A DNA stretch of 35,411 nucleotides from Tannerellaceae bacterium (GTDB lineage: Bacteria > Bacteroidota > Bacteroidia > Bacteroidales > Tannerellaceae). The position numbers and the translations under genes are program-made. Position 1 is the stretch's first letter. The number at the start of each line of letters is the position of its first letter. Location of the stretch: the NCBI GenBank assembly GCA_031266215.1, contig JAISBL010000091.1, forward strand, positions 1 through 35,411, written 5' to 3'. Positions 1,587 to 17,293 of this stretch are shown here, piece by piece. Below the pieces are notes generated by a model that worked only from the letters and a program-made list of their open reading frames with translations, did not search any database and had not been told where the DNA came from.

Positions 1587-2000
1587 ATGAACGAAGTGCG
1601 AATAGACAAATGGATGTGGGCCACGCGCATATTCAAGACCCGTACGATAGCCGCCGAAGCCTGTAAGAAAAACCGGGTGATGATAGGCGGGGTGAGCGTT
1701 AAGCCTTCGAGGATGATAAGGGAAGGCGAGATAATACAGGTGCGGAAGCCTCCCATCACCTTTTCGTTCAGGGCGCTGAAGCTTACCGAACACCGCATGG
1801 GCGCCAAGTTAGTCGCCGAATATCTGGAGAACGTAACCCCCAGGGAACAGTACGAGATATTGGAAATGAACCAGATATCCGGATTCGTGGACCGTGCAAG
1901 GGGACTGGGGCGTCCTACAAAAAAAGACCGCCGGGAGCTGGAGCAGTTTACCGACGCGGATGATTTTGACTTCGACTTTGATTTCGACTCCGAAGAATGA
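1587..2000 (+). CDS. S4-domain RNA-binding protein (HslR/Hsp15-like)
   Basis: RIDKWMWATRIFKTRTIAAEACKKNRVMIGGVSVKPSRMIREGEIIQVRK S4 motif; acidic (DF)n C-terminus. Confidence 0.92.
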   Translation: MNEVRIDKWMWATRIFKTRTIAAEACKKNRVMIGGVSVKPSRMIREGEIIQVRKPPITFSFRALKLTEHRMGAKLVAEYLENVTPREQYEILEMNQISGFVDRARGLGRPTKKDRRELEQFTDADDFDFDFDFDSEE

Positions 2001-2009
2001 CCTGCTATT

Positions 2010-2387
2010 ATGATAAAGCAACTACTTCTGGTATGTATAGGCGGAGGCGCCGGTAGCGCGCTGCGGTTCCTGATCTCTTTTGTGACAGGCAGGTGCGGCC
2101 CGGCCGGACTGTTTCCCCTTGCCACGTTCATTGTGAACGTGACGGGTTGTATCCTGATAGGATTACTTATAGGCTTCGCAGACAGGTATGAGGTACTGGA
2201 CAGGAACATGAAGCTGCTCCTCATTACCGGATTCTGCGGGGGTTACACCACCTTTTCTACCTTTTCGCTCGAGAATATCCAACTACTGGAAGGGCATCAT
2301 TACCTCACCTTCGCAGTATACACCTCCGGCAGTCTGGCGGCAGGCATAGCCGCCGTAGCGCTGGGCATCTTCCTGTCCAGGCTATAA
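2010..2387 (+). CDS. crcB: Fluoride efflux channel CrcB/Fluc
   Basis: GGGAGSALRFLIS … GFCGGYTTFSTFSLE signature, four predicted TM segments, 125 aa. Confidence 0.95.
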   Translation: MIKQLLLVCIGGGAGSALRFLISFVTGRCGPAGLFPLATFIVNVTGCILIGLLIGFADRYEVLDRNMKLLLITGFCGGYTTFSTFSLENIQLLEGHHYLTFAVYTSGSLAAGIAAVALGIFLSRL

Positions 2388-2417
2388 AAGAAAAAAACGA
2401 TGTAAGAGGAGGATTTC

Positions 2418-2526
2418 CGAACAAGGCATGTTCTAACCCACGAACAAGGCCGGTTCGTTCCCACGAACATGACGTGTTCGTGCCTACGAACATGACGTGT
2501 TCGTGGGTTAGAACACGGCCGGTTCG
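2418..2526. repeat. Array 1: five 23-bp units, 17-bp dyad CGAACA-N5-TGTTCG + 6-nt spacer
   Basis: Units at 2418, 2441, 2464, 2487, 2510, exact 23-bp register. The last unit enters the 3' end of the BASS CDS. Confidence 0.95.
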
Positions 2527-3839
2527 CGTCGGCCCTTCCTGCGCCACCAGCCTGCAAGCGCCGATCCGGTTATATTCATCAGAGGCCCGAAGACGGCGGA
2601 GGCAACACCTGCTGCGGCCGCCTTTCCTATCTGCGTGGCCAGTCCGGCGTTTTGCATGCCAACCGCTAACGCTATCGCCCGCCGGTCTTTCTCAGGCGCC
2701 CTGAATAACCATGCCACAGTGTAGCCGAGGGCGTAACCGGCGGAGTTGAGGAACAGGCCGGTCAGGAGCAGCAAGGCTCCCACGCTGAGCAGACTGTCGC
2801 GTACGGTGGCGGTGACGATGGTGATTATAAGCGCTATGCCGGCCATCGGGAGGAAGGATAAGAAAGAGTCTGTTATCCTGCGGTCGCCCCTGAAAATGAT
2901 CCGCATGATGACGGAAAAGACAATCGGGCCGAAGCAGAACCAGCAGGCCGATTTGAGCAGTGAAAGGAGGAATCCAGCAATACCGCATCCGTCGGAGACC
3001 ATCTCTGCCAGGCACGTAAGAGCTATTATCACGAAGTAAGTCCCCAACTGTATAGCTTTGGACCCGGCCACGTCCCGGGCGGAGTAAAAGAGGTTGAATA
3101 TGAACCCGGCCACGATGGGGAGTACGATCATATTAAGGCTGTAAAGCATCATTCCCCATACGTCGATTGCTATGTACTGACCGGCCAGCAGGCGCATAAG
3201 CGCCGGCGTGAGCACGGGCGACAGCAGGGTGGCGATAAGGCCGATGGCGACCGAGAGCGGCAGGTTGGCGCGCGCGATGTAAGACATGACGTTTGACGCC
3301 GGTCCGCCCGGCACGCAGCCTATCAGGATGACACCCATAGCTATTCCCGGAGGGAAGATGAATGCCTGCGATATGGCGAAGGCCGCCAGGGGCATGATCA
3401 TGAACTGCGCACACACGCCGATAATCAGGCTGCGCGGCATACGGACGATGCCGGCAAAGTCTTTCGGGCTCATCTTCGAGCCTATCCCAAACATGGCGAC
3501 CTGCAATAGCGGCGCTATCAGGATGCCCGGCTCAAAACTCCCCACAGCCGTGAAGCAATGCGGGTAGAACATTGAGGCCGCCACGGCCGCTAATATCCAG
3601 ACCGTGTAAGAGAACCTCCTGACGGCCTCAAAGCCCCTGACGCCTATGGCAAGGAGTATGAGGCAGCCCAGTATGGCAGGTCCGACCAGACCGACGCGCC
3701 CTGCCGGTATCAGCGACAGGGCGACGAGGGCCAGGGCGAGCGAGCCGCCGATAAGGCATTTGTAAGTAACTTTATTGTTCACGGGTAAAATCGCCGCGGT
3801 CAGCTCCAGAGGCGGTCGTGAGAACGCTTGTCGTCCCAC
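2508..3839 (-). CDS. Bile acid:sodium symporter (BASS)-family transporter
   Basis: About ten hydrophobic segments; PLLQVAMFGIGSKMSPKDF and GCVPGGPASNVMSYIARANLPLSVAIG BASS motifs. Likely start is GTG at 3782 (VNNKVTYKCLIGG), since the ATG ORF overlaps the upstream gene. Confidence 0.88.
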   Translation of the reverse strand: MGRQAFSRPPLELTAAILPVNNKVTYKCLIGGSLALALVALSLIPAGRVGLVGPAILGCLILLAIGVRGFEAVRRFSYTVWILAAVAASMFYPHCFTAVGSFEPGILIAPLLQVAMFGIGSKMSPKDFAGIVRMPRSLIIGVCAQFMIMPLAAFAISQAFIFPPGIAMGVILIGCVPGGPASNVMSYIARANLPLSVAIGLIATLLSPVLTPALMRLLAGQYIAIDVWGMMLYSLNMIVLPIVAGFIFNLFYSARDVAGSKAIQLGTYFVIIALTCLAEMVSDGCGIAGFLLSLLKSACWFCFGPIVFSVIMRIIFRGDRRITDSFLSFLPMAGIALIITIVTATVRDSLLSVGALLLLTGLFLNSAGYALGYTVAWLFRAPEKDRRAIALAVGMQNAGLATQIGKAAAAGVASAVFGPLMNITGSALAGWWRRKGRREPAVF

Positions 3840-5284
3840 TCCGGCGTGGGAGCAAAGTAACTCTTGTCACGCGGGTTCAGGTGCTGCTTCACCACTTCGT
3901 CGTTAAGCTCTATCCCCAGTCCGGGAGAGTCAAGCGGCACGTTGGCGAAGCCACTGGTTATCATCGGTTCTTTTCCGGTCATTTTGACCATGCTTTCCCA
4001 CCACGGGCTGTCTACGCTGTGGTGCTCAAGGGCCAGGAAGTTATGCGTCGCCGCCGCACAGTGCACGTTGGCCATAAAGCAGATCGGCGTCCCGGCCATG
4101 TGCATAGCCATAGCCACGCCATGCTCCTCGGCATAGTCGCCAATGCGTTTGGTCTCCAGCAGTCCGCCTGAAGTGGCAAGGTCAGGATGGATGATGTCTA
4201 CCGCATTAGCATCTATAAGAGGCTGGAAGCCGTCTTTGAGGCAATAGATATCTTCACCCGTACAGGTAGGCGTCTCGAGGGCGTCGGAGATTATCTTCCA
4301 CTGATCGGTGCGATACCACTGAACCATGTCTTCGAGCCATGCGAGGCGGTATTTCTCCATCGCCCGTCCGAAGCGGATGGAGTTGTTCAGGTCGAAATGC
4401 CCGAAGTGATCGGAGCACAGAGGCACTTCGTAGCCGACGGCGTTGCGCACCGACTCTACATAGGAGGCGAGGCTCTCAAGCGCCTTGTCGGTTATCTGAA
4501 CCTGCGTGAAGGGATGTTCGGTGTTGCCGTATCCCATGTAAGTGCGAAGGTCGTACTGTCCGCGTACCCCTCCCCAGAACTTGTTGTTGACTATCGAGTT
4601 CTGCTGGTCGGCTGCGAGATGTATACCAAGGTCCATCTTCAGCCAGGTGAAACCCTGATCGACCATCCTCTTCTTCACCACCTCGGCAAACTTTTCGGGC
4701 GTACCGGCGTCGGGCGTATCGGCATAGAGGCGCACCTTGTCGCGGAAGCGGCCGCCAAGGAGCTGCCATGCAGGTACGCCGTAAGCCTTGCCGCACAAGT
4801 CCCACAGCGCCATCTCGACAGCGCATACTCCGCCGCCCTGGCGTGCGTGGTAGCCAAACTGGCGGATGATCCTGAAGATCAGCTCGACGTTACAGGGATT
4901 CAGACCCAGGATACGGCTTTTGAGGAATAGGGCGAAACGTTCGTCGGCCCCGTCCCGCACTTCTCCCAGTCCGTATATACCCTGGTTGGTATCGATCCTG
5001 ATGATAGGCGTACGGCCTACGTTCTGAACTACGGCGTAGCGCATGTCGGTGATCTTGAGTTCCGACGGCGCCGAGGCCTTATTTACATTCTGGGTCGTAT
5101 GAGCGACGGCATCTTCTATCGAAGCATGCATCATCCCGCCCAGCGTCAGTCCGCCGAGCGCAGCCCTTTTGAGAAAACCCCTGCGCCCTGCGGCGGGGTT
5201 AGCGGGAGAGCCATAAACGCTGAGGGCTTCAGCCTCTTCCCTTGCCCGTTCTTTAGTGACGAGATCTTTTAATTTGTTCTTCAT
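3800..5284 (-). CDS. Enolase-superfamily (mandelate racemase/RspA/mannonate-dehydratase-like) enzyme with Tat-type signal
   Basis: AVEMALWDLCGKAYGVPAWQLLGG, LKMDLG, LEDMVQWY, TGEDIY, DLATSGGL motifs; N-terminal RRGFLKRAALGGLTLGGMM. Confidence 0.88.
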   Translation of the reverse strand: MKNKLKDLVTKERAREEAEALSVYGSPANPAAGRRGFLKRAALGGLTLGGMMHASIEDAVAHTTQNVNKASAPSELKITDMRYAVVQNVGRTPIIRIDTNQGIYGLGEVRDGADERFALFLKSRILGLNPCNVELIFRIIRQFGYHARQGGGVCAVEMALWDLCGKAYGVPAWQLLGGRFRDKVRLYADTPDAGTPEKFAEVVKKRMVDQGFTWLKMDLGIHLAADQQNSIVNNKFWGGVRGQYDLRTYMGYGNTEHPFTQVQITDKALESLASYVESVRNAVGYEVPLCSDHFGHFDLNNSIRFGRAMEKYRLAWLEDMVQWYRTDQWKIISDALETPTCTGEDIYCLKDGFQPLIDANAVDIIHPDLATSGGLLETKRIGDYAEEHGVAMAMHMAGTPICFMANVHCAAATHNFLALEHHSVDSPWWESMVKMTGKEPMITSGFANVPLDSPGLGIELNDEVVKQHLNPRDKSYFAPTPEWDDKRSHDRLWS

Positions 5285-5333
5285 TACTGGTTTATTTAAG
5301 TTCGATTACAATAGAGAATATTTTTATTAATGA

Positions 5334-6455
5334 TTATCCGTTAACCTCCTTGTCGGCCGCTTCCATCAGTCCGCGCATATAACCGACGGCAAAGAGGTTG
5401 CCCAGCAGTCCGTAACTTGGGTTGGTATTATCCTCGCCCGTCATCGTAGGCACATGATCGGGGCGTATAGGCCCGCGGAAGCCCGTCTCATAATAAGCTT
5501 TCATGGAGCGGTACATATCTGTTATGCCGTCGTCGTGGTAAACCTCCTCAAAGTTGGTGCGTGTCCCACGAACGTCCCTGAAATGTACGAAGAATGTACG
5601 GCCTGCAAAGCGCCGGATAACCGCCGGCACGTCTTCGCCCATCGTAGCGAAGCATCCCTGGCAGAGCGTAACGCCGTTGACCGGGTTCCTGTACAGGTTC
5701 ACGGCCCTTTCCATATTATCGGCCGAGATGAGTATGCGTGCAATGCCGCGGAGCGACGGTATAGGCGGATCGTCGGGGTGCAGGGCCAGGAGCACGCCGG
5801 CCTTTTCGGCTTCGGGCACTATGGCTTTCATGAAGTACTCAAGATTAGCCCACATCTCATCGGCGGTAAACTCGCGCCCGAACCGGTTGCCGGCACTGGC
5901 GTCCACCGATTCTATATCAAAGGCGGTGACGAGCGAGCCTCCCCTCGTCTTGCGGTCGCTGGAGGTGCGGAACCACCCGACCTCGGGCATCCAGTTGTAG
6001 CAAACCACCTTTACCCCATGCCGTCCGGCGGCGTGAAGGAAGGTGATAAAGCGGCTGATCTCCTGATCGCGTCCCTCAAGGGCGAGCTTGGTCTGCGAGC
6101 CAAGGGCCGGCGGGCCTTCTACGACGCAGAAATTCAGTCCGCGCTCACGGTAAGCGGCCACGGTGCCTTTCACGGCCTCCTCGCCCCAGGAATCAGTCCC
6201 CTGCGGCAGGCCCAACTGGCGGGCCGGCATTATCCCGCCCACGGCATACTCCACGCCAAGCTCTTTAGCCATCTGCACCTTGGTCGCGTTTGTAGGGCCA
6301 CCGTAGAAAAAGTCAAAAGCCAGTTGCATCTCGGCCTTACCTCCTGCCGGAGGCCTTGTCTCCTGCCGGCGGGCGGCGAACGCAGGCCCTGCCCCGGAGG
6401 CTATCATTCCACCCCCTGCCAGTATCGATGCGTTAATAAAGTTTCTTCTGTTCAT
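5334..6455 (-). CDS. TIM-barrel mannonate dehydratase (UxuA)-like protein with signal peptide
   Basis: GVEYAVGGI…, VEGPPALGSQTKLALEGRDQEI, VVCYNWMPEVGWFRTSSDRKTRGG, LALHPDDPPIPSLRGIARI, HFRDVRGTRTNFEEVYHDDGITDM motifs; N-terminal MNRRNFINASILAGGGMIASG. Confidence 0.85.
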   Translation of the reverse strand: MNRRNFINASILAGGGMIASGAGPAFAARRQETRPPAGGKAEMQLAFDFFYGGPTNATKVQMAKELGVEYAVGGIMPARQLGLPQGTDSWGEEAVKGTVAAYRERGLNFCVVEGPPALGSQTKLALEGRDQEISRFITFLHAAGRHGVKVVCYNWMPEVGWFRTSSDRKTRGGSLVTAFDIESVDASAGNRFGREFTADEMWANLEYFMKAIVPEAEKAGVLLALHPDDPPIPSLRGIARILISADNMERAVNLYRNPVNGVTLCQGCFATMGEDVPAVIRRFAGRTFFVHFRDVRGTRTNFEEVYHDDGITDMYRSMKAYYETGFRGPIRPDHVPTMTGEDNTNPSYGLLGNLFAVGYMRGLMEAADKEVNG

Positions 6456-6596
6456 ATCAGTATTATTATTTAAAATATCAAATCACACCGGCGCCACGGG
6501 TGCGTAGTACATGCCGCCGCACCTTCTTCCGTTCGTCAGGGCCTCATTTACAGTGGGTTTGTACATGTGCCAAAGGCCTCCGGGCACAAATGTAAG

Positions 6597-6828
6597 GCTT
6601 TTGGACATATGCGCAAGAGCTTTGGACATATGCGCAAACGCTTTGGACACATGCGCAAACGCTTTGGACATATGCGCAAGAGCTTTGGACATATGCGCAA
6701 ACGCTTTGGACACATGCGCAAGAGCTTTGGACATATGCGCAAAGGCTTTGGACATATGCACAAAAGCTTTGGACATATGCGCAAAGGCTCCGGGCATATG
6801 CGCAAGAGCTTCGGACATATGTCCAAAT
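6597..6828. repeat. Array 2: eleven 21-bp units, GCTTTGGACATATGCGCAARN, centred on CATATG dyad
   Basis: Units at 6597 (22 bp), then 6619 to 6808 in exact 21-bp register. Degenerate units continue into 6555-6596 and about 6829-6870. Confidence 0.97.
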
Positions 6829-6877
6829 CGCCCTGGCATATATCCGGAGAGCCTGCGTGTATGTCCTGACGGCCGGG

Positions 6878-8437
6878 TCATTTCCTTACATCCCACCAGC
6901 AGCGGTATGTGAACTGCCCCACCAGGGTTACGTCCGCCGGCATACCCATACGGGCGAGGGCGGCAAGATAATTAGCCTCGTTACGTGTCTGCTCGCTGCT
7001 GGCGTAAGGCATTCGCCGGGGCATATCCACGCCGTTGATGTTGGGCGCCAGGTCCGGGCCCCACTGGCGGATGTAAAACCATCCCTGGAATGGGTCCATA
7101 TAGTTGGCTATCCACATCTCGCGCAGGAGGCTGGCCTCGCTGTAAGGGCGGTAAGCAAGATAATCGTCTATCTCCGCGTCGGTGATACGGTTGACGCCGG
7201 GATAGGAGTTGTAGAATGTCATATTGGCCCTGACACCCTGGCGGTACATATCGTCAGCCGTCATCCCCGAAGTGTTCCAGCCAAGCGCAGCGGCCTTGGC
7301 GATGCAGAAATACATCTCATGCGCCGCCAGGCGTACGACAGGCGACTCGTAGTCGAAAAGATACCTGCTCGGACGGGTGAAGTCTTTCTGTATCCTTTCG
7401 TATGGCGCGAACTGGACATCCTGTCCGTGGGGATAACCCCGTTGCAGGTCGACGGTATAATCCCACGCCGTATCATCCCACCAGTAAGTGTTCATTATAC
7501 CGGAGTTGGGCACCGGCAGGTCCTCCCTCAGCTTTCCTCCGAGGATGACCTTGCGGCGCGGGTCGCTGTCTTTAAGGGCTTCCACGAAATCAGCCCCCAG
7601 CTTCCAGTACTTCTCCGGGTCATTGTATATCATGGCGTAAGCCACCGGGTTGCGCTCGGAGTTCTGGTTGTCTACGCAGGGAATGCTGAAGTTAGCGGCG
7701 TTGTCGAGGATCACTCCGCCCTTTATAGCCTCTTCGGCATACCGGCGGGCGGACTCAGGGTCTGCGGCCGCCATACGCATAGCCATCCGCAGCATGAGCG
7801 AGTAGCCGAACTGCCGCCAGGCGGATATGTCTCCCTTGTAAATAACGTCGTACGTCCTCCATGACGGCAGGCTCTCGTCAAGCGCGGCGCAGGACGAGGA
7901 GAGCGTCTCGAGGATAGAGCGGTAGATGTCCTGCTGTGCGTCGAAGACCGGCGACAACATCCCTTCGAGGTAGGCCTCCCCGGCCTCGGAGTACGGAATA
8001 TCGCCGTATACATCCGTCCCCCACGAAAAGATCGCTCCCTTGAGGATGTTGAGTATAGCGATATTGTTGGCCATCTGGGGAGAGTTCTCCTTCTCCAGCA
8101 CGCTGAGTATGTGCACCACCATCTTCGCCTCGTTGCTGAACATATCCCACGGCTCGTTGAAGTAAGACCCGTCGTACTGGTACCGGTCTCCCGGCATTAT
8201 GAGCGAATGCGTGGCGTAATACTTTGCATACCCGGCGGGTATCCTCAGGGCCGTGACGGCCGAACGGCGGGAGTAGTTCACTTCAAGGTTGGTGAAGAGC
8301 ATCCCGATGTCTGCCGTTTCGTCTGTAACCATGTATTTGGGATTGTCCATATCCGCCAGGCTGTCCGTATTGCAGGCCGTGAATCCTGCCGCCAGCAGAA
8401 AAGCAAGTGCGGGGAGATAAATATGTTTTTTCATCAT
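6878..8437 (-). CDS. SusD/RagB-family outer-membrane lipoprotein
   Basis: Lipoprotein signal (LLAAGFTAC), DVYGDIPYSEA, YAEEAIKGG, and position directly downstream of susC. Confidence 0.93.
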   Translation of the reverse strand: MMKKHIYLPALAFLLAAGFTACNTDSLADMDNPKYMVTDETADIGMLFTNLEVNYSRRSAVTALRIPAGYAKYYATHSLIMPGDRYQYDGSYFNEPWDMFSNEAKMVVHILSVLEKENSPQMANNIAILNILKGAIFSWGTDVYGDIPYSEAGEAYLEGMLSPVFDAQQDIYRSILETLSSSCAALDESLPSWRTYDVIYKGDISAWRQFGYSLMLRMAMRMAAADPESARRYAEEAIKGGVILDNAANFSIPCVDNQNSERNPVAYAMIYNDPEKYWKLGADFVEALKDSDPRRKVILGGKLREDLPVPNSGIMNTYWWDDTAWDYTVDLQRGYPHGQDVQFAPYERIQKDFTRPSRYLFDYESPVVRLAAHEMYFCIAKAAALGWNTSGMTADDMYRQGVRANMTFYNSYPGVNRITDAEIDDYLAYRPYSEASLLREMWIANYMDPFQGWFYIRQWGPDLAPNINGVDMPRRMPYASSEQTRNEANYLAALARMGMPADVTLVGQFTYRCWWDVRK

Positions 8438-8453
8438 GAACAGTTTTATTGTG

Positions 8454-11400
8454 TTAGAAAGAAAGGTTGATATTGAGCGAATAATTGCGCGTGGCCGGAA
8501 GGGCGAAACGCTCCAGCCCGTTATTGTTCAGCGTAGAGGCGTCACCGTTGGGGAGCTTGTTGACGATGTCGAACAGGTTGCGCCCGACGAGCGACAGTCT
8601 CACGTTACGGATGGGAAGGTTCCTTAGCGCCGAGTTCGGAAGGGTGTAGGCGAGCGAGAGCTGCCTCATCTTGACGTACGAGGCGTCGAAGACGTTATAA
8701 GATACCAGGTCTCCCATGCCGTAGCGGTAGTAGTTCTCAAAATTATTCCTCTCGTAAGGTATGCTGGTGTCATGGTCCAGCGGCACGTATATGCCTTCAG
8801 GGTTGAGGTATACGCCCTCGACGGGAATACCCCCTTCGCGATATTCGACAGTACGTTTGCTGTGCCCGCGGGCCGTCATGTCCCACTCTGAGTAAGAGAA
8901 GACTTTGGCCCCCCACTTGGCGTCGATCATGGCCTGCAGGGTGAATCCTTTGTAACTTAAAGACGTCGATATGCTTCCCATATTGGGATGAAGCCCCGAC
9001 CCAAGTATAACAGGCTCTGAGGTCTTCTGGGGGAACCATATCCCGCGCGAGGCGTTCCAGTACCATATGGGCTGACCCGAACCTTCGTCGATAGCCTGAG
9101 TGTATCCTACGATGGAGGTGAAGGGCTGGCCTACGATCTGCTTTGTGGTAGCGTTGGCGGCATCGCCGTAGCTGTTGACCTGCAATTCGCTGACGCCTCC
9201 CAGGTCGAGCACCCTGGAGGTGTTGAAGGTATAGGTGAAGGTCAGGCTCCATTCAAAGCCCCTGGCTCTCACGGGCACTACGGTGAGCATGAACTCATGG
9301 CCCTTGTTGCTCATCTGGCCAAGATTGACCGTCGCTCCGGTGTATCCGCTGGATAGCGGCGCGCTGACGCTTACGATGTCGTTGCTCGTCAGCTTGTCGT
9401 AATAGGCGTAGTCGAGGGCCAGGCGGTTATCGAAGAACCGCATGTCGATGCCGGCCTCGTACTCACGCGTTTCGTACGGCATGAGGTCGGACTTTGGTAT
9501 GGTCGCAGGCAGCGACAGCAATGGATAACCGGCGTACCCAAGGGCGTTGGAGGTGTATCCGAACTTCGTCATGTACGGGTTGGCTCCCCCGCCGACCTGT
9601 GCATAGGAGGCCCTGAACTTGCCGAAGGTCACCCACGATGGTAGTTTGAAGTGCTGTGAGAATATATAACTCAGCCCCACGCTGGGGTAGAATATGCTGT
9701 TGCTGGCGGGCGAGAGGCTGGAGAACCAGTCGTTACGCCCGGTGGCGGTCAGGTAGACGAAGTTATTGTAAGAAACTTCGGCGCTGCCGTACAGTGAATT
9801 GATGCCGTACTCGGAATATGAGACGTTGGTAGCCAGTACCGAGGCGTTGGTTACCTCATGATAGTAGGGAATGGTCAGGCGCGTACCTGTCAGTCCGTCG
9901 CGGTTGTTTACCGAATGTGTGAGGCTTCCGCCGAACATGGCGTTGACGTTGAATTTGCTGATGTCTTTGTTGAAGACGATAGAATAATCGGCGTTCCAGC
10001 GCGTGTCCTTGTTCGTGAACTCGTCCACGCTGCCTGTTCCCTGTGAGAACTGCGTGGCGCCGTAGGCTTCAACCGTGCGGGCTTTGACGACGTTGAGGTC
10101 TATCCCTATCCTTCCGGTGGCGTAGAGCCAGGGAGTGATGTCGTACCGGCCGGATAAGACGGCGTTCACGCGGTCGCGCTGGTCGTTGGCCTCATTCTGA
10201 TAGCTGGCCCAGTATGGATTGTGGTAGTACTCGTTGGTACTCCAGGGCAGCATGTTGCCGGCCTCGTTGGCCCCTATCTTCGATGTTGTTCCCTTAGCCC
10301 AGTCAAGGTCCCACATGGTAGGCATATGTCCCAGCGTCCAGACGTAAGACTGTGTGTTCGGACGGTTCTTGACCTTCATCGTGGAGAACTCCAGCTTGGC
10401 GTCTACATGCAGTTTGGTCCCGATAAGCGACGAGGTATTGAGCGATATGGTCTGCCTGTTCATATCCGAATTAGGCAGCGGCGACTGCTGCCGCATATCG
10501 GATACCGACAGCCTGTAATTCTGCGTCTCCGACCCTCCGGAGAAGGCCAGGGCGTTGTTTGCAAAGAATCCGCTCCTCGTGAAGCTGTCCCACGGCAGTT
10601 CATGGTAGCTGTATCCCCAGGGCACGGGCGTGACATTATCGGGGTAATAGGCTTCGCTGCCGTCATATTTGGCTCCCCACTCCTGATGGGCGTTATATCC
10701 CCATCCGTTCACGTTGACGTCGGGCTTTTTGCCTTCGATACCTACGCCGTAGGTCGTCTGACGGTTCCTGAAAGGGTTCACGTATTCTTCGAACCCAAAG
10801 CTGCCGCTGTAAGTGACACCCAGGTTCTGATCCTTGCGCTGGCTGCCTTTCTTTGTAGTGATCAGGACTACGCCGTTGGCAGCCTGCGATCCGTACAGGG
10901 CCGTCGCGGCGGCGCCTTTGAGTACGCTGATCGTTTCTATATCATCGGGGTTGAGCGTGTTCAGCACGTCGCCGAAGTCGCGGCTGTTACGTGTGAATGA
11001 TGACAGACTAATCTGTATCCCGTCGACCACGTACATCGGATTACTGTCTCCGTTTATCGTAGTGTTCCCACGGATCAGCACCTTGGACGATCCGGCGATG
11101 CCGGTTCCCATAGTGGCGATGTCCACGCCCGCTATCTTGCCCGACAGCGAGTTCATTATGTTAACGTCAGACGACTGCCCCAGTTCGTCGCCCTTTACCT
11201 CGGCGGCGGAATAAGTCAGGGCTTTCGTCTGCCTCTTGATGCCGAGGGCGGTCACGACGACTTCGTCCAACTGCCTGCGGTCTTCAACCAGCGTGATGTT
11301 GATGCGTGAGCCGGCCGACGTTCCTATACGTATCTGCTGCTCCATGTATCCAATGAAGGAAACTACCAGCACAGCTCCGGGCGATACGCTGAGCGAAAAC

Positions 11401-11936
11401 TCGCCGTCCAGATCGGTCACAGTCCCGTTCGTAGTCCCTCTCTCCATGATATTGGCCCCGATGATAGGGCCGGCCTCATCGCTTACCACGCCTCGCACCG
11501 TGATCTTTGCTATATCCTGTTGCGGGCGCGGAAGGGCGTTGGGTGTTGCATCATTAGATCTGGCATCCACCTTCCTCAGTGAAATATAGTTGTCTCCGAA
11601 CCAATAGGCAATGTTGCCATCGCTGAAGACGTCTTTCAGAATGTCTGAAACTCTCCGGCTTTTCGTATGTATTGTCACATGACGGTTTATATCTACATCG
11701 GTATTGCTGTAGACAAAAAGATAGCCTGTCTGCTCTTCTATCTCCGAGATGAGTTCCTTCAGAGTCAGAGCTTCGTTACTTATTTGCACAACGGTTGTCT
11801 GCGAGTATAATTCTTTCGCTTGCAACTGTATAAGAAATACGAATAACAGAAATGTGGATAATTTCATAATACGAGATACTTTCCTTGGTTTAAGCTCTCT
11901 TAATGCATAAGAAATCGTTGCTAAGTTTTTTTTCAT
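8454..11936 (-). CDS. SusC/RagA-family TonB-linked outer-membrane transporter with N-terminal STN domain
   Basis: STN-like region (LTLKELISEIEEQTGYLFVYSN), carboxypeptidase-regulatory domain, LDEVVVTALGIKRQ TonB box, VLIRGNTTING…PMYVVDG, plug/barrel, C-terminal NLSF. Confidence 0.96.
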   Translation of the reverse strand: MKKNLATISYALRELKPRKVSRIMKLSTFLLFVFLIQLQAKELYSQTTVVQISNEALTLKELISEIEEQTGYLFVYSNTDVDINRHVTIHTKSRRVSDILKDVFSDGNIAYWFGDNYISLRKVDARSNDATPNALPRPQQDIAKITVRGVVSDEAGPIIGANIMERGTTNGTVTDLDGEFSLSVSPGAVLVVSFIGYMEQQIRIGTSAGSRINITLVEDRRQLDEVVVTALGIKRQTKALTYSAAEVKGDELGQSSDVNIMNSLSGKIAGVDIATMGTGIAGSSKVLIRGNTTINGDSNPMYVVDGIQISLSSFTRNSRDFGDVLNTLNPDDIETISVLKGAAATALYGSQAANGVVLITTKKGSQRKDQNLGVTYSGSFGFEEYVNPFRNRQTTYGVGIEGKKPDVNVNGWGYNAHQEWGAKYDGSEAYYPDNVTPVPWGYSYHELPWDSFTRSGFFANNALAFSGGSETQNYRLSVSDMRQQSPLPNSDMNRQTISLNTSSLIGTKLHVDAKLEFSTMKVKNRPNTQSYVWTLGHMPTMWDLDWAKGTTSKIGANEAGNMLPWSTNEYYHNPYWASYQNEANDQRDRVNAVLSGRYDITPWLYATGRIGIDLNVVKARTVEAYGATQFSQGTGSVDEFTNKDTRWNADYSIVFNKDISKFNVNAMFGGSLTHSVNNRDGLTGTRLTIPYYHEVTNASVLATNVSYSEYGINSLYGSAEVSYNNFVYLTATGRNDWFSSLSPASNSIFYPSVGLSYIFSQHFKLPSWVTFGKFRASYAQVGGGANPYMTKFGYTSNALGYAGYPLLSLPATIPKSDLMPYETREYEAGIDMRFFDNRLALDYAYYDKLTSNDIVSVSAPLSSGYTGATVNLGQMSNKGHEFMLTVVPVRARGFEWSLTFTYTFNTSRVLDLGGVSELQVNSYGDAANATTKQIVGQPFTSIVGYTQAIDEGSGQPIWYWNASRGIWFPQKTSEPVILGSGLHPNMGSISTSLSYKGFTLQAMIDAKWGAKVFSYSEWDMTARGHSKRTVEYREGGIPVEGVYLNPEGIYVPLDHDTSIPYERNNFENYYRYGMGDLVSYNVFDASYVKMRQLSLAYTLPNSALRNLPIRNVRLSLVGRNLFDIVNKLPNGDASTLNNNGLERFALPATRNYSLNINLSF

Positions 11937-11943
11937 AACTTTG
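11936..11943 (+). promoter_or_regulatory. Candidate -7 element TAACTTTG on + strand, antisense to the susC start
   Basis: Exact TAnnTTTG match directly adjoining the susC start codon and oriented opposite to susC. Confidence 0.4.
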
Positions 11944-11949
11944 CAGTAC

Positions 11950-12023
11950 TTTAAATTTATAATATGATTTGATCTAAAATGTGAAATGACTCTAAGGAGA
12001 GTGCGCCAGCGCTCTCCTTTTTT
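11950..12023 (+). ncRNA. Candidate small antisense RNA between fecR and susC
   Basis: Bounded by TAACTTTG (11936-11943) and a GGAGAGTGC-gcca-GCGCTCTCC-TTTTTT terminator (11996-12023) reading on + only. No + strand ORF. Confidence 0.45.
11996..12023 (+). terminator. Rho-independent terminator
   Basis: 9-bp stem with one G:U and a GCCA loop, followed by T6; the reverse orientation lacks a U-tract. Confidence 0.75.
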
Positions 12024-12095
12024 GTCTTACCGGAGGGTAGTGTCAGGAGGTGTCCATAATGTGTGTTTTCATAAATAGCAGGTAATAATTAAAGG

Positions 12096-13085
12096 TTAAT
12101 ATATCTCTATCTCATATTCGTCTATTAGTTTGTAATTAAACTTTCCGGTTTCTTTTATCGCCTGAAGGATAAGCTCTATCTTATCGCTCTGCCTGAATTT
12201 GCCTGAGAATACGTATGAGGATATTTCCTCTTTCCTTAAATGTATTTTTACATTATACCATAATTCCAGGCAGTCTCTGATTTCTTTGAAAGAGATGTTT
12301 TCAAAGTGATAGATGCCGTTCATGATATAGCGTGAGTAGCTGAAGGTGGAATATGACTTCGCCAACTCCCCGTTGTCTCCGAGAAAAGCAGTCTCTTCGG
12401 GATTAAGATGAAGCGTCTTGCCGGCATCGTCTTTATCGTATATGAAAACGGATCCTTCCACAAGATCAGTCTTGAAGATCGGGCTTTCGCTATAAGCAAA
12501 TACGTTGAACTGGGTTCCTGTCACCTGTATGTTATATTGCCTGGTTTTTACGGTAAATGGCTTTTCTTCATCCTGGCTTACCGTGAAAAAAGCTTCGCCG
12601 TCCAGCTCTATCGTGCGTTCTTTCTTATTGAATTGGGTTGGTATGCTAAGTTTGGTCCTTGAACTTAGCCATGTTTCCGTTCCGTCGGGAAGTACAACAT
12701 GTATAGACTGTCCTTTGGGCGCTTCTATGTACGTATAGCTGTTGTCTTTTGCGTCTTTCATAGCCTGCTGGTATGCATATACCATCCAGATACAGCTTAC
12801 GAAAAACGCCACCGCCGCGTATTTAAGAGTTGTGATCAAAACTCGCCGTTGCCTCCGTCTGGCGGCAACGTGCATCAGTTCGCTCATCTTCTGTACGACC
12901 CACTGTTCGTCGCCTTCCTTATTTGCCATACCGGATATAGCCATTATGTTTTGCATACGGGCAAACTCTTTTTTCAAAGCGGCATCACTGTCTATTTCCT
13001 GAAACAGGACGCTTCTTTCCGGTTGAGTTATCGTGCCGGCAAAGTATTTATTCAGCAGTTCGTGCATAATATCCTCTTCTAACAT
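12096..13085 (-). CDS. FecR-family anti-sigma factor
   Basis: TYIEAPKGQSIHVVLPDGTETWLSSRTKLSIPTQF…ERTIELDGEAFFTVSQDEEKPFTVKTRQYNIQVTGTQFNV FecR core; one TM segment. Confidence 0.95.
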   Translation of the reverse strand: MLEEDIMHELLNKYFAGTITQPERSVLFQEIDSDAALKKEFARMQNIMAISGMANKEGDEQWVVQKMSELMHVAARRRQRRVLITTLKYAAVAFFVSCIWMVYAYQQAMKDAKDNSYTYIEAPKGQSIHVVLPDGTETWLSSRTKLSIPTQFNKKERTIELDGEAFFTVSQDEEKPFTVKTRQYNIQVTGTQFNVFAYSESPIFKTDLVEGSVFIYDKDDAGKTLHLNPEETAFLGDNGELAKSYSTFSYSRYIMNGIYHFENISFKEIRDCLELWYNVKIHLRKEEISSYVFSGKFRQSDKIELILQAIKETGKFNYKLIDEYEIEIY

Positions 13086-13706
13086 TTATATGACGTAAAA
13101 AATAATTTTCCCACCTAATGGAAATGAAGAAATCAGGATGGTGAAGAATATACAGATGGGAATGCGATCCTTCAATATTGCTCTCAGCTTGCGTAATGCA
13201 ATGCTCATCTGGCCTTCGACAGTATTGGTGGAAATATTCAACTGCGCCGCTATCTCTTTGTGTCTGAGTCCTTCGATCCGGTTGAGTATGAATATCTCCC
13301 TGCATCGTTCGGGCAGGGAATGGATGGCGTCGGCTACGATTATCCTTATTTCTTCATTTGTGAGGATATTTTCATCCATAACCTGCAGTGAATAGAGGTT
13401 CAACTGAAGCTCTTTTTCCAGCAATTCAGACAACGGCTGCTCTTTCTGTTTAAGTTGCGTTTGTTTGCGCAAATAATCAATGCATCTGTTTTTAACAGAC
13501 ATAAAAATAAATGCATCAATGTTGATCAAAGTGTCAATCTTATCCAAATTTTCCCACAGGTGAAGGAATACATCTTGCACTATGTTTTCGGCATCTTGCA
13601 GTGTGAGGACGTACGTTTGTGCGAAACGCACCAGTTTGGGATAATGTATAGAATACGCCTTTTCAAAATCTTCTTTATGGGATTTGAGCGCTGAAACTAA
13701 AGCCAT
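13086..13706 (-). CDS. ECF RNA polymerase sigma-70 factor
   Basis: FEKAYSIHYPKLVRFAQTYVLTLQDAENIVQDVFLHLWEN region 2 and LPERCREIFILNRIEGLRHKEIAAQLNISTNTVEGQMSIALRKLR region 4. Confidence 0.96.
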   Translation of the reverse strand: MALVSALKSHKEDFEKAYSIHYPKLVRFAQTYVLTLQDAENIVQDVFLHLWENLDKIDTLINIDAFIFMSVKNRCIDYLRKQTQLKQKEQPLSELLEKELQLNLYSLQVMDENILTNEEIRIIVADAIHSLPERCREIFILNRIEGLRHKEIAAQLNISTNTVEGQMSIALRKLRAILKDRIPICIFFTILISSFPLGGKIIFYVI

Positions 13707-16828: not shown

Positions 16829-17164
16829 TTCGTATGTACGTTTTCCGAATTCGTATGTACGTTTTCCGAATTCGTACGTACGTTTCATGAATTCGTACGT
16901 ACGTTTTCCGAATTCGTATGTACGTTTCCTGAATTCGTATGTACGTTTCCTGAATTCTTACATACGTTTCCTGAATTCGTATGTAAGTTTCCCAAATTCT
17001 TACGTACGTTTCATGTATTCGTATGTACGTTTTCCGAATTCGTACGTAAGTTTCTTGAATTCGTATATACGTTTTCTGAATTCTTACGTACGTTTCCTGA
17101 ATTCGTACATACGTTTCATGTATTCTTATGTAAGTTTGTACTATTCGTACTTACGTTTATACTA
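16829..17164. repeat. Array 3: sixteen 21-bp units, TTCGTAYGTACGTTTYCNGAA
   Basis: Sixteen units in unbroken 21-bp register; core CGTACGTACG/CGTATGTACG palindrome. Confidence 0.97.
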
Positions 17165-17293
17165 TCTCATATGGAATTGCTGCTCCATTTCCCTGTGTTG
17201 GCGTGAAGTAATGTGGGATGAGACTGTATCCAATTAGCCGCGCCCGCAAAAAAAAGCGTTAACTTGCAGCCCTGAAAATTAATACTAAGCTGC

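Follow-up and report, generated by a model that had tools for sequence, protein, structure and literature searches.

A predicted cis-antisense RNA facing the susC leader in a Tannerellaceae locus, with relatives across the Bacteroidales

The gap between fecR and susC in the DNA analysed here (the window, 35,411 nucleotides from a Tannerellaceae bacterium) quite probably encodes a cis antisense RNA of about 75 nt, which would pair with the susC leader and most likely repress susC. Judged from the sequences compared, there is very probably an RNA gene opposite the susC leader; by analogy with antisense RNAs already described, its most likely effect is to dampen susC mRNA. Antisense RNAs to susC are known from Bacteroides transcriptomes, and whether antisense transcripts are noise or have a function is still debated. 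In this respect, most STN-SusC genes of the genus show the box at exactly the same place on the start codon, terminators that covary and wobbles specific to one strand; together with matches in other families, this argues for a class under selection. With the search model, such RNAs can moreover be predicted from nothing but a genome sequence, also for uncultured gut species.

The minus strand of the window carries successively the genes of an ECF sigma factor, FecR, a SusC-type receptor and a SusD-like protein (Table 1), fecR and susC being separated by 159 nt. The source genome is Tannerellaceae-like: the nearest ortholog of this SusC, 86% identical, is found in a Tannerellaceae MAG. The region 3' of susC (2508-8437, minus strand) encodes, besides the SusD-like protein, a UxuA/TIM-barrel enzyme, an enolase-superfamily enzyme and an SBF-family transporter, and this downstream gene set suggests a sugar-acid locus rather than a classic polysaccharide locus. 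At the closest ortholog (L035) the nearest listed ORF upstream of susC is a phage-type integrase (1757-3100), and fecR was not found upstream of susC; the antisense cassette at the susC start (3890-4010) is kept there despite the integrase neighbour.

Table 1. Coordinates, in the window, of the predicted RNA, its signals and the neighbouring genes.
Feature	Position	Strand	Basis
-7 promoter box TAACTTTG of the predicted antisense RNA	11936..11943	+	Sequence; position shared with 72/90 genus STN-SusC genes
Predicted antisense RNA, ~75 nt (73-79)	~11949..12024	+	Start inferred from the box, +/- 4 nt; fold; covariance-model match
Intrinsic terminator, 11-bp stem, T6	11994..12023	+	Stem-loop scan; family covariation; antisense-strand G-U wobbles
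Micro-ORF MKTHIMDTS*, diverged counterpart of the TGCCTATG micro-ORF, without the exact motif	12043..12072	-	Related genus locus L041 has MKASTDTS*
susC start codon	11934-11936	-	ATG
susC/TonB-dependent receptor, presumed cis target	8454..11936	-	Pfam Plug + CarbopepD_reg_2; N-terminal STN-like region
SusD-like protein	6878-8437	-	
fecR anti-sigma gene, upstream of susC	12096..13085	-	Pfam FecR + FecR_C
ECF sigma factor gene, same locus	13086..13706	-	Pfam Sigma70_r2 + Sigma70_r4_2

An earlier note on this DNA had placed a promoter box beside the start codon of susC, followed at a distance by a strong terminator. The location of the box stands, though it does not simply adjoin the codon: the two overlap by one base, the first T of the box pairing with the A of ATG. 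The presence of the terminator and its T6 (12018-12023) stand as well; its stem-loop (11994-12019) comprises 11 pairs, six of them G-C according to the scanner, around a GCCA loop, and it lies about 50-75 nt past the box. As the note had it, no ORF separates the two signals, at least none of 80 aa or more. Compared with shuffles, the predicted RNA (about 11949-12025) is 4.1 sd more stably folded (z = -4.1); the first hairpin of GTTAATACT type, present in many relatives, is missing from the window copy. With a -7 box at that site, the RNA would begin 11-15 nt and stop about 85-90 nt before the susC ATG, and would thus cover the susC leader while the start codon itself stays uncovered. The complementarity between this RNA and the leader immediately upstream of that codon is perfect.

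Taken alone the box proves nothing, since TANNTTTG occurs 30 times in the window for 21 occurrences expected. With some 21 TANNTTTG expected per window, one could imagine that an A+T-rich gap merely brought together a random box and an unrelated hairpin. The starts of the 90 SusC genes with an STN-type N-terminus sampled from the genus leave chance a practically negligible probability: CAAANNTATG, i.e. TANNTTTG on the opposite strand, lies exactly on the start codon in 72 of them (the loci being mutually related, these counts are not independent events), and this exact position is also conserved across families. The two N positions of TANNTTTG vary freely among the boxed genes. Three of 20 SusC genes lacking the STN extension carry the box at the start codon. 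The -33 element, weak in the window according to the earlier note, is so family-wide: no conserved -33 element was found, TTG at spacers of 17-23 being no commoner in the 72 genes (12) than at control positions (17). In the own genome the exact string CATAACTTTGC has three sites, two of which are not at susC starts, so that this string is not specific. At several family sites (L089-L098) TTTTTCATAACTTTGC lies a few tens of nt before unrelated genes, which is consistent with TANNTTTG being a general promoter box.

A terminator on the antisense strand is present in 59 of the 72 boxed genes and ends 83-138 nt from the ATG (median 96); as controls, shuffling the leaders gave 1.5% and the sense strand 6.7%. 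The sequences thus place box and terminator at fixed positions far beyond chance. In an alignment of 37 sequences, whose terminators were chosen for pairing, 96.2% of the cells of the helix are paired and all 12 of its 12 pairs covary with changes on both sides; such double changes number 104, whereas shuffles gave 25 and sliding the helix never more than 20. A symmetric hairpin scan, treating G-T and A-C alike and having no preference for G-U over A-C, was applied to the stems of 52 loci: read on the antisense strand, they contain 74 G-U wobbles (G-T in DNA) and a single A-C. The 8 nt that follow the hairpin hold on average 6.0 T on the antisense strand versus 1.6 on the sense strand.

These data bear on whether the hairpin could rather be a structural element of the susC mRNA leader, the antisense RNA not being made. 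The hairpin is indeed located inside the susC leader, and the sense strand also folds around it (z = -2.2). We nevertheless regard this explanation as very unlikely: read on the sense strand, the antisense G-U wobbles would become C-A mismatches (74 versus 1), the T-tract follows the hairpin on the antisense strand only, and the -7 box is placed for that strand. The wobble bias indicates that the structurally selected transcript is the antisense one, not the susC leader. The plus-strand RNA antisense to the susC 5' leader, proposed at the outset, thus gains support from the box, the directional terminator, the covariation and the wobbles, and these answer the objection, raised with it, that the hairpin might serve minus-strand transcripts only. 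At the level of sequence, layout, conservation, covariation and strand of the structured RNA can be considered as established.

The predicted RNAs of the relatives measure about 75-130 nt, and their sequences diverge strongly while box and terminator stay. Such a divergence of the RNA body would also suit an antisense RNA that is made but acts mainly through transcription interference, or through promoter/terminator insulation, and not through base pairing; in favour of this, the two promoters are opposed, the antisense one lying on the susC start, and the terminator would shield fecR (and the sigma gene) from antisense transcription. On the other hand, the 5' part of many members forms a second, weaker hairpin (arms resembling GTTAATACT/AGTGTTAAC), whose wobbles are again biased towards G-U over A-C (34 versus 2), which suggests that the RNA body matters; besides, pairing in cis is automatically perfect. 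We find it rather unlikely that pairing plays no main part, and consider transcription interference by the opposed promoter as a real alternative, or an addition, to pairing.

For the pairing antisense RNA that we favour, the following scheme can be proposed. The antisense promoter, with its -7 box on the susC start codon, would fire back across the susC 5' leader, and the transcript would end at the factor-independent terminator. In the absence of substrate the ECF sigma factor would be held by FecR, and the antisense RNA would pair with whatever susC leader is transcribed, over a stretch of roughly -12 to -90, thereby blocking translation initiation of susC or triggering decay; RNA polymerase coming from the opposed promoter may add interference. 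Once the sigma factor is released, sense transcription would outrun the antisense RNA. Transcription at this locus, repression of susC and its exact mechanism are what we infer here; the cis-repressor, our preferred reading, is in line with the DonS precedent.

When the window copy and its closest ortholog were left out of its construction, a covariance model still recovered the window copy (11934-12028) with 47.8 bits and E = 1e-6, and gave five loci at E < 0.003 in the own genome, the window included. The stem pairs of a second match in the window (17108-17199; 20.5 bits, E = 0.08) are broken, and it was put down to chance. Across the order Bacteroidales 20 of 149 genomes match at E <= 0.001, in 19 families, a number which is a lower bound as this search used stricter filters. 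Of the 36 loci fetched (own genome and order, counting the window), 28 have a SusC-like protein whose reading frame begins at the box and points away from it. Six loci from named records (Phocaeicola massiliensis, Parabacteroides distasonis and Bacteroides finegoldii) match at E < 0.003; in five, a SusC-like start carries the box. The family to which DonS belongs, Bacteroidaceae, is represented by B. finegoldii (L216 and L221, with sigma and FecR genes) and by P. massiliensis (L213, on a stretch that is not annotated).

According to the account of Cao et al. (2016) given in PMC7366714, DonS-family RNAs are antisense to susC homologs and have a negative effect on them. For Bacteroides thetaiotaomicron ten PUL antisense RNAs were reported, five of them confirmed by Northern and some anticorrelated with susC (PMC7366714); a later count reached 32, the correlations with the PULs being negative for some and positive for others, so that repression is not universal (PMC10994844). 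The comparison with DonS made in the earlier note is apt as to layout (PMC7366714, PMC10994844): in both cases a short RNA diverges from a PUL susC homolog, is antisense to its 5' end and is preceded by a -7 box of the sigma-ABfr type; in the present family box and intrinsic terminator are conserved, a -33 element is not. DonS-like RNAs measure 78-128 nt; about 73-79 nt are predicted here from an inferred start site. A difference lies in the host, Bacteroides for DonS and a Tannerellaceae relative in our case. On the basis of layout, box, terminator and presence in Bacteroidaceae, the predicted RNA of the window belongs with the PUL-associated (DonS-like) cis-antisense RNAs, a known class. The order-wide model and the exact coupling to the start codon are extensions, which we did not find stated in the literature searched.

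FopS, deposited in Rfam, acts in trans via a shared 5' seed and represses the translation of SusC-like transporters (PMC11697453). FopS and GibS share with the present RNA their small size and terminator end (PMC11697453, PMC7366714); FopS RNAs likewise consist of a single-stranded 5' part followed by a terminator, and four of the 14 are antisense (PMC11697453). A trans-acting RNA of this type, found here by coincidence, seems however highly improbable: FopS works through its seed, whereas the RNA described here is encoded in cis, on the start codon of the adjoining gene, and the whole RNA family remains bound to that position. Moreover neither the window nor 20 related loci matched any Rfam family at the gathering score, with a release that may lack FopS; over gathering and permissive thresholds the single match was to a snoRNA, judged fortuitous.

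The sense strand of the leader may contain an element of its own. GCCTATG is found in 44 of 59 loci, where it precedes the hairpin by 28 nt and the susC ATG by about 120 nt. In 42 of these 44 genus loci its ATG is followed by an in-frame stop within 8 codons; the remaining frames give 16 and 20 of 44, and 500 shuffling runs averaged 16.5 without exceeding 25. This bias holds when similar sequences are clustered (13/14), and an in-frame stop follows in 37 of 38 other loci, other families included. A conserved TGCCTATG micro-ORF with its stop, usually of 1-9 codons, may therefore be a new feature of the susC leader; TGCCTATG was also considered as an ECF promoter element; the in-frame stop bias favours translation, although the motif may also have a promoter role. 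Since the peptides differ (M*, MK*, MM*, MDIF* etc.), it is the act of translation, not the peptide, that would matter. Besides the window, examples are genus loci such as L042-L174, and L069-L116, L190-L202, L216 (B. finegoldii) and L218 (P. distasonis).

We only tentatively suggest, as an idea somewhat less probable than its contrary, that STN-type SusC operons across the Bacteroidales share a leader module in which a translated TGCCTATG micro-ORF precedes the antisense-covered stretch and the box is fused to the susC start, both setting susC translation. If true, translation of the micro-ORF by ribosomes would combine with the antisense RNA into a two-part leader switch, which we did not find in the literature searched. 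Several leaders without GCCTATG (L048, L051, L119, L132, L155, L158, L215, L221) show instead a short ORF ending with Pro-stop, for example MLRGP*, MQRGP*, MNNGP*, MGP*, MTRSP* and MKNKDP*, related sequences being counted more than once; such ORFs could stall ribosomes.
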